Below are positions 759 through 40,045 of a stretch of DNA of 40,045 bases, piece by piece. The position numbers were made by a program, and so were the translations under genes. Below the pieces are notes generated by a model. The model made no database searches, was not told the origin of the DNA, and worked only from the letters and a program-made list of their open reading frames with translations. Location: contig JAUWND010000005.1 in NCBI GenBank assembly GCA_030612835.1, positions 1 to 40,045 of the forward strand, read 5' to 3'. Position 1 is the first letter of the stretch, and every line of letters begins with the position of its first letter. The DNA comes from Candidatus Methanophagales archaeon (lineage in GTDB: Archaea; Halobacteriota; Syntropharchaeia; Alkanophagales; Methanospirareceae).

Positions 759-1886
759 CTATGCAGGCGGCGTGATTACACCCATATCACTAACTAAATA
801 CTCGTAAAACGCGCTCCCCACCTCAATACTACCCTTGTATTGGATCACTGCATCGTCTGGTTGAAAAGCCATGAAATTAACAAAGCCAATATTAGCAAGA
901 TGGATCATATCGAAATCGATGACGTTTTCCGCATTAACGGTAACATTCAGATCGGGAGTTGAGAATACAACCATGGCTGGCCTTTTCCTGTTGAACTCAC
1001 TCTCATTTATCCAATCAGTTTCTGTAATCGTTATTTCATCGGCTGAATACTCTGCAAGTACCGACCCATTATGCTTGTCTAACAATGTCATGTGTTTATA
1101 CGCATAATCATCGTAGCCATCATCCAGACCCCTAACGGCATAAGCAACAGCTTGGTAGTTCTCTGTCGTCACTTCGACCCAACTCCAGCCATGCATATCC
1201 ATTGGCCACGGCCTGCTGCTAATAGGGATCACATGCTCCCTGTATCCATCGGCATCAGTGACATTGTATCTTTTGCCTTCTAACAGTATCGAACCGTGAA
1301 TAGTGCCATAGGGACGCTCGTATGAAGTAAAGTTAAGAGGATGTTCCACTTGATCAATTATCTCCTCTACCTTTGGTCTGAAGATCAAGTCCATAGCAAT
1401 ATCACCCGATGTGTAATTCAAATTATAGCCCGAGAGTGCAGAGCCATTAAATCGCTTTGCGCCATCCGGGTACACATAGTCCACGTAAGGAGTATGCAAT
1501 GCTATGTAATTACCGACTGTGGTTTGTGGAATGTAGGTCTCAGTATAATTGAAGGTTGTTGTGCCATTCTCAAAATAAAGACCGTAGAAAGTAACTAGAT
1601 GCGAGAGTTGTGTTCCATTCAAGCTAACAATTATAGGCGATTCTTGATGGGCCATAGTAACAAAGAAACCAATAACCTTCTCTTCACCTTCGGACGATAC
1701 TAATGTCGCTTTTCCATTTAGGTACCACCATTCGGCCATAAAGTCAACATTGTAATCTGTCTCTAAGTGCCCACCTTCGGTAAAGTCTGCCATATTTGCA
1801 GATGAATCCGCTGATGCGGGCACTATGCACATCACCACCACAAGCAATAACGTTAGCCCTAACAATATCTTACTTGTTTTGTTCAT
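759..1886 (-). CDS. Secreted AttH/CrtC-like (lipocalin-fold) protein
   Basis: A 375-residue protein with a clear signal peptide (residues 1-26: lysine, then a Leu/Val-rich core, then an ASA cleavage-like site). The mature part begins with the EWWYLNGKAT block and GFFVTMAH typical of the AttH/CrtC (hydroxyneurosporene synthase-like) double-lipocalin family. A second-half motif, MHGWSWVEV (about residues 230-240), is also typical. Many N-x-S/T sequons suggest a glycosylated exported protein. Members act on or bind hydrophobic ligands such as carotenoids; the substrate here cannot be read from sequence. It lies upstream of no obvious pathway genes and is separated by about 400 bases from the other secreted gene on the same strand. 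The family call is fairly sure, the function unknown. Confidence 0.65.
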   Translation of the reverse strand: MNKTSKILLGLTLLLVVVMCIVPASADSSANMADFTEGGHLETDYNVDFMAEWWYLNGKATLVSSEGEEKVIGFFVTMAHQESPIIVSLNGTQLSHLVTFYGLYFENGTTTFNYTETYIPQTTVGNYIALHTPYVDYVYPDGAKRFNGSALSGYNLNYTSGDIAMDLIFRPKVEEIIDQVEHPLNFTSYERPYGTIHGSILLEGKRYNVTDADGYREHVIPISSRPWPMDMHGWSWVEVTTENYQAVAYAVRGLDDGYDDYAYKHMTLLDKHNGSVLAEYSADEITITETDWINESEFNRKRPAMVVFSTPDLNVTVNAENVIDFDMIHLANIGFVNFMAFQPDDAVIQYKGSIEVGSAFYEYLVSDMGVITPPA

Positions 1887-2289: not shown

Positions 2290-5200
2290 TCAATTATTCT
2301 TTATCCAATCTGCGACATTATCAATAACAATTGGAGCTACATGACCAGGTATGAAAAGATCCGCGGGCGTGGCCTTACCCGTGCCGGGCACGGCCATAAA
2401 GAGATGATTGAAATCAGAATAAAGTATATTTTTGAAGCACAGGTTATTTTTTCCTGGCAGACCTTCTATCCACATCTCATAATCTACCATTGTAACGTGG
2501 TAATCGCGTTCTCCTTGAAGAATAAGAAAAGGACAAGTCAAATTTCTTGCGGTTTTTACGGGATTATAACCACTTAGATCCGCCCAATACGATTTCGGAG
2601 CGCCTAAGAGTATTTCGCCTTTGCTTATGTTAAGTTCTTTCACTTTCTTTGCTTGTTCCCTTAGTTCTTCTAAACTCTTTAGTTCCTTCTCGTCGGTCGT
2701 TCCATCCAGAGATGCCAGATACACTGTTTGTTCTAGTATCAAATCCGGTAAACTTCTCGCTCCGGCAGCAAGGAGAATAAGTCCGGAGATATTTTCATCG
2801 CGAGCCGCTATCCGAGGAGCGAGATACCCGCCCCAACTATGCCCCAAAACGGAAATATCGTCAGGGTCAATCCTTTCGGTTTCACGAAGCAAATCAACCG
2901 CTGCTATTGCATCATCAATTGCCTCATCGTTTACTGTGAAATTATCATTCTTAATCATAGCAATGCATTCTTCTGGATATCGGTAGGTGCGCTTGTCATA
3001 GCGGAGCACAGCAATGCCTTCTGTAGCAAGTCCCCAGGCGAGGTCTTTAAAGGGCTTATTGGGGCCTATAGTTTCATCCATGTCCTCTGGTCCTGAGCCC
3101 GCGACTAAAACAACAGCACGAAAAGGCCCTTTCCCTTTCGGTATGGTTAAAATTCCCGGCAACTTCCATTTACCTGTGCCAACTGTGCATTCTGATTCCG
3201 TGAATGAGTTAGGATCCGCATATTCCGGGGGTTGGTAGATTGGTTGAAAAAAAAGCCCCGCTATCTTTTCATGAATGTCAAAAACGATTTTCGCATCAAT
3301 GTAAGTTTTGGAAAAGTTACATGTGACAAAAACGATTTCATAGCCCTTTTCCTCGGTGCTACTGATATTCACAATTCCTGTAAACGCACCGTATTGATCA
3401 ATCAAACCATTCCAGGTTGCATTGAGTTTATCAACGGGTAAGGCTTCCGCCATATCCATGTTAAAAAAACCATGTGCCTTTTCAAATTCACTTTCATTGA
3501 GGAGAGTAACAAAGGTCTTAGCTATTGTTTCCAGATTAGACGTAGCTGCTACTTCCGTCACTGATTCACTACTTATGTAGTACTCAAAAGGCGTCAATAA
3601 TGGATAAAAATCACATTCTTCCTTTTCTGAATCTATGCTATAAGGTCTGTCGCCAATGCCATCTGCATCTGCTCTTCCTTTGTAATCCGCCCAGTAGTTG
3701 CCTAAGTAGCTTGCGTAAGTTGTTCTGTTATAAGTGTAGGTTATTTCTTCTGGCGAGTTCCAGATGTTGGTTGATGCATAAGAATAAACATTAAAAGTGT
3801 TGTTTATGTAGTTGTTTAGATAGATGCTATTGTTGCTGGAAAAGGAGAGGTGGATGCCGCCATTGCTGTTGTTGCGGACATTGTTGCCCGTTATCGTGTT
3901 GTTGCGGGAATCGGAGAGAATGATGCCTGTATTGCTATTGTTGCTGACAGTATTGTTTAAGACTTTACTATCTTCTGTCTTCCATAGTTCTATCCCAACG
4001 CTCGTATTGGATAAATCCAGACCTTCTACCGTGATACTAGTGCAATTGACAAGTATTACCTGTCCTGCATCTTCAACCGTATATTCCGAAGCATCTACCA
4101 GATAAACAAGAGGCTTACCATTTACTGTATTGTCTTCCACGGTGTTTTGATAGTTTTCAAAAACAAAAAGACCACAATTTACAAATGTATTGCCTGTAAT
4201 GGTATTGTTGCTGCAGGAATCCCAGAGGCTGATGCCGCCAATGCTGTTGCTTCCGACATTGTTGCCTGTTATTGTGTTGTTGCTAGATCCCCAGAGGGAG
4301 ATGCCGCCAATGCTGTTGTTGTTGACTTTGTTGCCGGTTATGCTGTTGTTGCTGGAACGGGAGATGCTGATGCCGTTTCCGTTGTTGCAGACAGTATTGT
4401 TTAAGACTTTACTATCTTCCGTCTTCCATAGTGCTACCCCAACGCTCGTATTGGCTAAATCCCGATTTTCTACCGTTATATTAGTGCAATTTACAAGTAT
4501 TACCTGTCCCGCATCTTCAACAGTATAATCGGAAGCATCTTCCAGATAAACAAGAGGCTTACCATTTACTATATTGCCTTCCACAGTGTGTTGAGAGCAA
4601 TCATCAACACTAATACCCTCATTTACGAATGTATTGCCGGTTATGCTGTTGTTGGTGGAACGGGAGAGGCAGATGCCGTCATCGTTGTTGTCGCCGACAT
4701 TGTTGCCTGTTATGCTGTTGTTGCTGGAACGAGAGAGGTAGATGCCGCCATTGTTATTGCGGACATTGTTGCCAGTTATTGTGTTGTTAAAAGGGAATAG
4801 CACGAAAGAGGAGAGCCAGATGCCGACATTGCTGTTGTTGCCGACATTGTTATCTGTTATTGTGTTGTTGGAAGAGTCGCCGGAAAGGTAGATGCCAACA
4901 TTGCTGTTGCTACGGACATTGTTGCCTGTTATGGTGTTGTTACAGGAATCTGAGATGCTTATGCCGTCCCCATTGTTGTTGCTGTCATTGTTGCCTGTAA
5001 TGGAGTTGTTGCTGGAATCAGAGAGGCTGATGCTGCCACAGTTGTTGTTGCTTACTTTGTTGTTTGATATTCTACTGTTTTTTGTCTTACATAACTCTAT
5101 ACCAACGTCCGTATTAGATAAATCCAGATTATCCACTGTGATATTAGTGCAATTTACAAGTATTACCTGTCCCGCATCTTTAACCGTATAATCCGAAGCA

Positions 5201-5817
5201 TCTTCTAGATAAACAAGGAGCTTACCATTTACTATATTGCCTTCCACAATGTTTTGATAGGAATTAAAAACACGAAGACCATTATTTACAAATGTATTGC
5301 CTGTAATGGTGTTGTTGTTGCTGGAATCGGCGAGGTAGATGCCGCCATATTCGTTGTTGCTGACATTGTTGCCGGTAATGGAGTTGTTGCTGGAAGAGTC
5401 GACGCTGATGCCGTCACTGTTGTTGTAGACATTGTTACCTGTTATTGTGTTGTTGCTGGAAATTACTCTGATCCCAGCACCATTCCACATACTCCCTGAG
5501 TTTGTTGCATTGAATCCTTCAAACGTAATCCCATCTGCATTTAAAGTAATCGCACTACCACTGCCGTTTGCATCCACAACAGGATAATCAATCCCTTTTA
5601 GTGTAACCGACTTATTAACATACACATGTTCATAGTAAACACCGGAATGTACTATAATCGTATCACCCATAGAAGCATTATTTATCGCTTCTTGTATCAC
5701 TGAGAAATCCGCTTCACCGCTGCCATCCACAGACCAGTTCGTTGCAGATGCAGTAGCCACAAAACTCAGCACCAAAATCGTAGCACATATGACCAATAGC
5801 CCACTTTTTTTATCCAT
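2290..5817 (-). CDS. Secreted NosD-like beta-helix protein fused to DUF3887-like and alpha/beta-hydrolase domains
   Basis: A 1175-residue protein. Residues 1-26 are a signal peptide. Residues about 28-740 are a right-handed parallel beta-helix of the NosD/CASH type, with dozens of turns of the form NNTITGNNV or SSNNSITGNN. Three long modules carry LVYLEDASDYTV and GQVILVNCTNITV. Residues about 760-875 (TIAKTFVTLLNESEFEKAHG) resemble DUF3887. Residues about 880-1175 are an alpha/beta hydrolase with oxyanion-loop GSGPEDMDE, nucleophile Ser994 in GHSWGG, Asp1105 in GERDYH and His1138 in DFNHLF, so the catalytic triad looks complete. It is exported and probably heavily N-glycosylated. The hydrolase resembles bacterial DUF3887-hydrolase esterases, here attached to an archaeal surface beta-helix. 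The fusion is unusual; the natural substrate is unknown. Confidence 0.8.
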   Translation of the reverse strand: MDKKSGLLVICATILVLSFVATASATNWSVDGSGEADFSVIQEAINNASMGDTIIVHSGVYYEHVYVNKSVTLKGIDYPVVDANGSGSAITLNADGITFEGFNATNSGSMWNGAGIRVISSNNTITGNNVYNNSDGISVDSSSNNSITGNNVSNNEYGGIYLADSSNNNTITGNTFVNNGLRVFNSYQNIVEGNIVNGKLLVYLEDASDYTVKDAGQVILVNCTNITVDNLDLSNTDVGIELCKTKNSRISNNKVSNNNCGSISLSDSSNNSITGNNDSNNNGDGISISDSCNNTITGNNVRSNSNVGIYLSGDSSNNTITDNNVGNNSNVGIWLSSFVLFPFNNTITGNNVRNNNGGIYLSRSSNNSITGNNVGDNNDDGICLSRSTNNSITGNTFVNEGISVDDCSQHTVEGNIVNGKPLVYLEDASDYTVEDAGQVILVNCTNITVENRDLANTSVGVALWKTEDSKVLNNTVCNNGNGISISRSSNNSITGNKVNNNSIGGISLWGSSNNTITGNNVGSNSIGGISLWDSCSNNTITGNTFVNCGLFVFENYQNTVEDNTVNGKPLVYLVDASEYTVEDAGQVILVNCTSITVEGLDLSNTSVGIELWKTEDSKVLNNTVSNNSNTGIILSDSRNNTITGNNVRNNSNGGIHLSFSSNNSIYLNNYINNTFNVYSYASTNIWNSPEEITYTYNRTTYASYLGNYWADYKGRADADGIGDRPYSIDSEKEECDFYPLLTPFEYYISSESVTEVAATSNLETIAKTFVTLLNESEFEKAHGFFNMDMAEALPVDKLNATWNGLIDQYGAFTGIVNISSTEEKGYEIVFVTCNFSKTYIDAKIVFDIHEKIAGLFFQPIYQPPEYADPNSFTESECTVGTGKWKLPGILTIPKGKGPFRAVVLVAGSGPEDMDETIGPNKPFKDLAWGLATEGIAVLRYDKRTYRYPEECIAMIKNDNFTVNDEAIDDAIAAVDLLRETERIDPDDISVLGHSWGGYLAPRIAARDENISGLILLAAGARSLPDLILEQTVYLASLDGTTDEKELKSLEELREQAKKVKELNISKGEILLGAPKSYWADLSGYNPVKTARNLTCPFLILQGERDYHVTMVDYEMWIEGLPGKNNLCFKNILYSDFNHLFMAVPGTGKATPADLFIPGHVAPIVIDNVADWIKNN
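3970..5240. repeat. Three ~160-base direct repeats inside the beta-helix gene
   Basis: Near-identical copies lie at about 3970-4130, 4411-4580 and 5076-5245. Each encodes the NGKPLVYLEDASDYTV and QVILVNCTNITV module. Between them run shorter, degenerate repeats of about 66-72 bases (words such as TTGTTGCCTGTTATGGTG and TTGTTGCTGGAA) that encode single beta-helix turns. The nested arrangement suggests growth by unequal crossing-over or slippage within the gene. Confidence 0.8.
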
Positions 5818-39909: not shown

Positions 39910-40045
39910 ATGAGCTACATACGAAAAATTATTCGGCGTAATAAAAGCGGCAAAATCAAGGTCTATTACGCCGAGGTAGAATCTGTCCGAGTTGGTGGAA
40001 AAGTTATCCAGCGGCACATCCGATCTTTGGGTACTAACCCGTCTT
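39910..40045 (+). CDS. IS1634-like transposase, N-terminal part (cut by window edge)
   Basis: 45 residues before the right edge. MSYIRKIIRRNKSGKIKVYY followed by VESVRVGGKVIQRHIRSLG matches the typical N-terminus of IS1634-family transposases. The same orientation and family as the C-terminal fragment at the left edge. Whether it is intact depends on sequence beyond the window. Confidence 0.7.
   Translation, partial: MSYIRKIIRRNKSGKIKVYYAEVESVRVGGKVIQRHIRSLGTNPS

Follow-up and report, generated by a model that had tools for sequence, protein, structure and literature searches.

How an archaeal beta-helix comes to be continuous with a complete hydrolase, and what such a protein might do outside the cell, are the questions raised by a locus in contig JAUWND010000005.1 (assembly GCA_030612835.1) of a Candidatus Methanophagales archaeon. 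The source organism belongs to ANME-1 and is an uncultured methane-eating archaeon, and its genome (G000) is 86% complete and distributed over 213 contigs. The window analyzed here comprises 40,045 nucleotides, from position 1 to position 40,045 of the contig. Within it, one open reading frame (ORF) joins a NosD-type beta-helix to a DUF3887 domain and a hydrolase related to the esterase EstD. The fusion is real, unites two exported proteins of known kinds, and is found in two genomes. Its parts are as follows.

2290..5817, minus strand: fusion ORF of 1175 amino acids (beta-helix, DUF3887, EstD-like hydrolase), a single unbroken frame with an ATG start
5743..5817, minus strand: signal peptide, residues 1-25, a hydrophobic stretch followed by ATASA-TN
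3583..5742, minus strand: NosD-type right-handed parallel beta-helix, residues 26-745 (PF05048, PF13229, TIGR03804)
3523..3582, minus strand: junction, residues 746-765, placed by alignment of the helix cap with that of the nearest helix paralog
3253..3522, minus strand: DUF3887 (NTF2-like) domain, residues 766-855 (PF13026, E 1.5e-20, 74 bits against a cut-off of 31.8)
2296..3192, minus strand: EstD-like alpha/beta hydrolase, residues 876-1174 (NF041096, PF00326 and, by sequence, alpha/beta hydrolases of the PDB)
3100..3102, minus strand: Ala906, which replaces the oxyanion-hole His of the HG motif (VAGSGP for VHGSGP; from the alignment)
2836..2838, minus strand: Ser994, the nucleophile in GHSWG (position check and alignment)
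2503..2505, minus strand: Asp1105, the triad acid (position check and alignment)
2404..2406, minus strand: His1138, the triad base (position check and alignment)

The N-terminal part has the features of archaeal NosD-type beta-helix proteins, namely a signal peptide, coils of 22-27 residues and a matching C-terminal cap (GNYWADY...GIGDRPY...YPLLTPFEYY). Residues 3-27 are hydrophobic in a hydropathy scan and a signal-peptidase-like cleavage site was assigned by eye, which agrees with the export foreseen in the original prediction. In addition to the regular coils, the helix contains three longer modules with NGKxLVYL, and its composition is rich in Asn/Ser/Gly repeats (N 18.6%, S 12.7%). NosD (PF05048, 268 bits) and Beta_helix (PF13229, 208 bits) match in five stretches each, above the Pfam gathering cut-offs, and the NCBIfam para_beta_helix repeat (TIGR03804) matches the N-terminal helix part. 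Identity as the NosD copper maturation protein (TIGR04247) was ruled out, since that model scores 178.8 bits against a cut-off of 300. Unlike the fusion, in which an enzyme follows the cap, the nearest NosD-type paralogs end past the cap, some bearing an anchor tail and others none.

An assembly chimera was ruled out because a separate single-cell assembly, that of ANME-1 cluster archaeon AG-394-G06 (G003; PRCZ01000001.1, locus L029), carries an equivalent fusion of 1199 amino acids that is 88-89% identical. This second copy adjoins ValRS and MoaC, matching the neighbors of the window copy, and differs from it by one inserted stretch of 22 residues, corresponding to a whole coil, and by a few short gaps at the ends or of single residues. 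The window contains no N, the GC content is smooth through the junction, and residues 740-880, where a stop or an assembly join had been named as the sign of a false fusion, are free of stops. Thus, the claimed continuity of the helix with an alpha/beta hydrolase is borne out by one ORF of 1175 residues that recurs in G003. The ratio of nonsynonymous to synonymous substitution rates (dN/dS) between the two copies is 0.41-0.57 for the helix, 0.44-0.46 for the NTF2-like domain and 0.25-0.28 for the hydrolase, which is therefore the most constrained domain.

The C-terminal part resembles EstD of Thermotoga maritima (lipolytic family X). The EstD model (NF041096, NCBIfam) spans residues 757-1174 (E 1.9e-139, 465.4 bits), covering the DUF3887/NTF2-like domain and the alpha/beta hydrolase at full length, and the Pfam family Peptidase_S9 (PF00326) matches residues 964-1140 above its gathering cut-off (E 4e-10); the PDB sequence relatives of the hydrolase part are ordinary alpha/beta hydrolases only. 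A DUF3887-type domain ahead of an alpha/beta hydrolase is a known layout (PMC3924330), and the EstD model covers both; the helix is thus the only unusual element. The original prediction overlooked both this standard EstD layout and the replacement of His by Ala at residue 906. The fusion shares with EstD the GxSxG motif and the Ser-Asp-His triad (S994, D1105, H1138); unlike EstD, it falls below the equivalog cut-off, reads GHSWG instead of GHSLG, has Ala at the His position of the HG oxyanion motif, and is preceded by an exported beta-helix part of 745 residues. The pairing of a beta-helix with EstD appears to combine known parts in a new way and not to be a new kind of system, and no description of such a fusion was found in the open-licence literature, as judged from titles and abstract openings. 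A similar architecture, in which a large N-terminal helix-type domain precedes a functional exported module, occurs in an ANME multihaem cytochrome protein, although its cargo is a cytochrome instead of a hydrolase; the likeness is one of architecture.

With a little more than even confidence, we regard the fusion as a secreted esterase that is targeted by its helix. Sec export would bring the protein outside the cell, where the beta-helix may act as a rigid stalk that binds a glycan or matrix surface and presents the enzyme to it. The NTF2-like domain would form part of the enzyme unit, as in EstD, and the hydrolase would cleave acyl esters of short to medium chain length in the vicinity of that surface via Ser994-Asp1105-His1138, provided that catalysis survives the change at residue 906. 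Thermotoga EstD, which carries the GHSLG motif, is described as a carboxylesterase that works best on C5-C8 (PMC6622161). Display on the cell surface and action on extracellular esters had both been proposed for the fusion; an ester hydrolase outside the cell is retained as the best guess, and surface display loses ground because the protein has no anchor, the last 60 residues containing no hydrophobic segment in a hydropathy window. A PGF-CTERM or archaeosortase-anchored surface protein was ruled out on the same absence of a C-terminal hydrophobic window, which is present in paralog L096:2337-3842.

The state of the catalytic residues bears directly on this proposal. Ser994, Asp1105 and His1138 lie exactly at the positions given in the original prediction and align with conserved columns of relatives. 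The alignment has 24 rows (the window copy, L029, L011, the fragments L012 and L022, and 19 other phylum loci); eight loci (L050-L057) with partial or 26-33% matches were excluded, as were matches without loci. The triad Asp and His are kept in all 24 rows and the nucleophile Ser in 17 of the 22 that include its region, with Gly in five haloarchaeal-type rows. Five EstD-like proteins from phylum-mates (L040, L043, L045, L046 and L047), which form one family (f22), read GHGLGG, with Gly for the catalytic Ser, and are probably non-catalytic EstD-like paralogs. Residue 906 is Ala in both fused copies (AG at 906-907) and His in 20/20 unfused relatives. The HG motif is described as contributing to the oxyanion hole (PMC5110521). 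Because Ala906 separates both fused copies from the unfused relatives, the fused enzymes share a change that could alter their activity. One alternative is a degenerate hydrolase whose fold persists in a binding or structural role; the missing oxyanion His would then be the mark of a protein that no longer catalyzes, or that binds acyl groups, and is heading to loss. The breakage of the gene in another genome of the genus (G004, see below) and the five Gly-bearing haloarchaeal relatives, which imply that probably inactive members exist in the family, agree with such a course. Oxyanion loops hold the anion more by their backbone than by the His side chain, however, and both fused copies retain the complete triad, with the hydrolase as the domain under the strongest constraint. 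The intact triad and the low dN/dS argue against plain decay, and we consider a degenerate enzyme rather unlikely.

The helix itself suggests a second alternative. Some polysaccharide lyases and epimerases have a right-handed beta-helix fold, and the fusion could be a two-step polysaccharide enzyme in which the helix is a pectate-lyase-like lyase or epimerase and the esterase strips acyl groups from the same polymer. The AlgG epimerase model gives a weak match in this direction (29 bits against a cut-off of 700), but most of the helix is made up of generic NosD-type Asn/Ser/Gly repeats, Pfam returned no lyase family, and the gain or loss of a coil as a whole unit between the two fusions is stalk-like. 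Such a two-step enzyme seems improbable to us.

The origin of the fusion may be traced at the junction. The best DNA matches of its helix within its own genome lie on contigs C131, C132 and C176. In the cap alignment, the C176 paralog runs FENYIISTSAHTELPTPGFELLFAIIGVVVAMRLVRRRGQV and then stops, and the fusion runs FEYYISSESVTEVAATSNLETIAK into DUF3887. This nearest paralog has a PTPGFE-hydrophobic-RRR tail exactly at the junction point of the fusion, C131 and C132 contain out-of-frame remnants of an apparently equivalent tail, and in-frame stops interrupt the C176 gene at two points. In the alignment, the enzyme thus occupies the place of a predicted membrane-anchor tail in the close helix paralogs, which is consistent with an EstD gene of the genus having been attached there, downstream of the cap, to one of many beta-helix genes. 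The PTPGFE-hydrophobic-basic tail of C176 resembles a PGF-CTERM sorting signal; in the model library it gave only a sub-threshold match to Heimdall-CTERM. A strongly hydrophobic C-terminal tail occurs in only 1/35 helix ORFs collected from the genome, which counts against a general rule of anchor tails. The window genome also contains a match to archaeosortase A (TIGR04125, 194.5 bits against a cut-off of 75) at G000:C128:18957-19724 (L122), and 4/5 genomes of the genus pass this cut-off. These matches contrast with a 2017 review in which archaeosortase A is reported absent from ANME-1 (PMC5244752).

Helix genes are abundant in this genome, which yields 91 NosD matches. From fetched stretches of the fragmented assembly, 35 helix ORFs were collected by phmmer and 22 of them, other than the fusion, were scanned with Pfam; those outside the scan are mostly short or stand-alone. 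An enzyme-type Pfam domain above its cut-off is present in six of the 22, and two C25 ORFs assigned separately bring the enzyme-bearing total to eight, the DUF3160 pair being counted apart.

L092 and L110: helix with C25 (Pfam, above cut-off)
L088:15209: helix with subtilase (Pfam, above cut-off)
L088:1103: helix with cell-wall hydrolase (Pfam, above cut-off)
L091: helix with metallophosphatase and FGE-sulfatase (Pfam, above cut-off)
L089: helix with PLD (Pfam, above cut-off)
L080: helix with C25, two ORFs (separate C25 assignment, 48-49% identity to the L092 cargo)
L082: helix with DUF3160, a domain of unknown function, two ORFs (Pfam)

The remaining helix ORFs carry DUF11, PKD, kelch, RHS or CBM96, or nothing recognized. 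The premise that beta-helices normally occur by themselves or beside adhesion modules is contradicted in this genome by these counts, and ANME-1 has several helix-enzyme proteins besides the fusion. The own-genome ORFs with C25-like, DUF3160, subtilase, PLD or metallophosphatase/FGE cargo resemble it in placing a NosD helix in frame with an exported enzyme-type domain, but differ in the cargo and, in some, in having the enzyme N-terminal of the helix. The C25-helix pairing recurs in G002 and in G225, a member of another ANME-1 genus. DUF3160 is found in 29/51 genomes of the family, mostly in frames of ~770-820 residues, and among six long-frame loci checked outside the window genome only that of G003 combines it with a helix. 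Several of these loci have features of their own. The four C25 helix ORFs of L080, L092 and L110 (contigs C8, C121 and C154) carry related, gingipain-like cargo of ~900 residues, and two of them are in tandem and 86% identical across the cargo. In L082 (C135), adjacent helix-DUF3160 ORFs of 1121 and 1734 residues are followed by a third helix ORF, and L081 (C21) is a helix ORF of 2114 residues with a pair of dockerin-like repeats at its C-terminus (VDMGDVILLLNN, recognized by eye).

So many helix genes, with tail remnants and in-frame stops in the close paralogs and a broken fusion in G004, would also suit a neutral accident, in which recombination among helix genes placed a helix ahead of an EstD gene while the two parts share no function. 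However, the fusion is intact in two genomes with dN/dS <1 in every domain, and the joining of helix and enzyme recurs with other cargo, so that we find an accident of this kind hard to credit. A broader proposal, tentative and in our view somewhat doubtful, is that the ANME-1 beta-helix is an interchangeable targeting stalk for exported hydrolases (EstD, DUF3160, C25-like peptidases, subtilase, PLD and others) whose targets in the methane-oxidizing consortium would be the common matrix or the surface of the bacterial partner, with EstD retuned in that its oxyanion His has been lost. The means by which ANME archaea construct, reshape and maintain the matrix shared with their sulfate-reducing partners are an open question, for which exported enzymes borne on a single type of helix supply concrete and testable candidates that may act on the matrix or on the partner surface.

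The distribution of the EstD unit is narrow. Among 392 genomes of the phylum, 45 contain an EstD-like match and none reaches the equivalog cut-off (600 bits); a match within a frame of >1000 residues is present in the window genome and G003 only, the next longest frame being 734. A single scan of genome contigs for the fusion, with bacteria outside its scope, matched L029 only. Within the class, the unit is confined to this genus, in 4/58 genomes that represent 4/5 of the genus: it is fused in G000 and G003, stand-alone and as a fragment in G002, and broken in G004. The stand-alone ORF of G002 has 447 residues, is 51-53% identical and shows, by eye, a hydrophobic N-terminus; the second piece in G002, a fragment cut off by the contig start, is 77-80% identical. 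At the G004 locus, between MoaC and the ortholog of the neighboring gene, ~1.5 kb of the helix is missing, as is ~0.8 kb of the NTF2-hydrolase part together with Ser994, and the remnant is spread over two frames. In the tree, from which L012 and L022 (both without the Ser and HG region) were excluded, the fused copies cluster with the stand-alone copy of G002 (support 92/86), and G068 joins this trio (100/100). Many haloarchaeal relatives read as exported lipoproteins, with N-terminal AGC motifs seen by eye. No EstD was found in IMG/VR viral contigs, and plasmids yielded 18 records, mostly from Streptomyces and all below 60% identity. Stand-alone, fused and broken copies within one genus thus show both the making and the loss of such a protein.

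Several of these results count against a working, targeted esterase. The fusion gene is broken in G004 and the EstD unit was not found in G001 (81% complete), on which grounds the gene looks dispensable. The EstD score of 465.4 bits lies below the curated equivalog cut-off of 600, the change from His906 to Ala could lower or abolish hydrolysis, and the hydropathy scan of the C-terminus revealed no anchor that would explain retention at the cell. The AlphaFold2 model of the full-length protein, built on a two-row alignment, has a mean predicted local distance difference test score (pLDDT) of 43, with ~40-80 in the helix part and ~20-37 past residue 670, and is uninformative for the enzyme.

The gene next to the fusion had been taken for an exported protein of the AttH/CrtC type that might serve the same extracellular process.

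759..1886, minus strand: P0002, a neighboring exported protein of 375 amino acids

P0002 matches nothing in Pfam or NCBIfam, and the AttH/CrtC identity was not confirmed: no PF07143 match exceeded the cut-off, and the G004 ortholog gave only a sub-threshold CrtC match (E 0.15, 13.1 bits against 22.5). A PDB profile search with the P0002 family returned no match at E up to 1, and AlphaFold2 of P0002 alone was uninformative (pLDDT 33). The P0002 ortholog is intact in G004, where the fusion is broken, and broken in G003, where the fusion is intact; in G002, it lies on a different contig from both EstD matches. Since it is intact in G004 and G002 and broken in G003, the neighbor neither travels nor decays with the fusion. 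An operon as a functional unit was rejected on this independent decay and on the gap of 403 bp, which contains a dispersed repeat, and the case for a joint process is weak. The G002 ortholog (L100, on C127) is extended to 607 residues by a second, unrecognized domain at its C-terminus.

Rfam recognized one tRNA only in the window, and scans for bacterial-type promoters and terminators returned numbers close to the shuffled average, so no weight was put on them. The repeat in the gap, of 20 bases, lies at 1985-2004 on the minus strand within a hairpin region (~1915-2012) between the fusion and P0002. It occurs at 109 places in the genome at <=2 mismatches (64 forward and 45 reverse), with 0 for the reversed control. 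The strand around it folds much better than shuffled versions (z -3.9) and has no Rfam match, and it is possibly an element of the miniature inverted-repeat transposable element (MITE) or repetitive extragenic palindromic (REP) kind.

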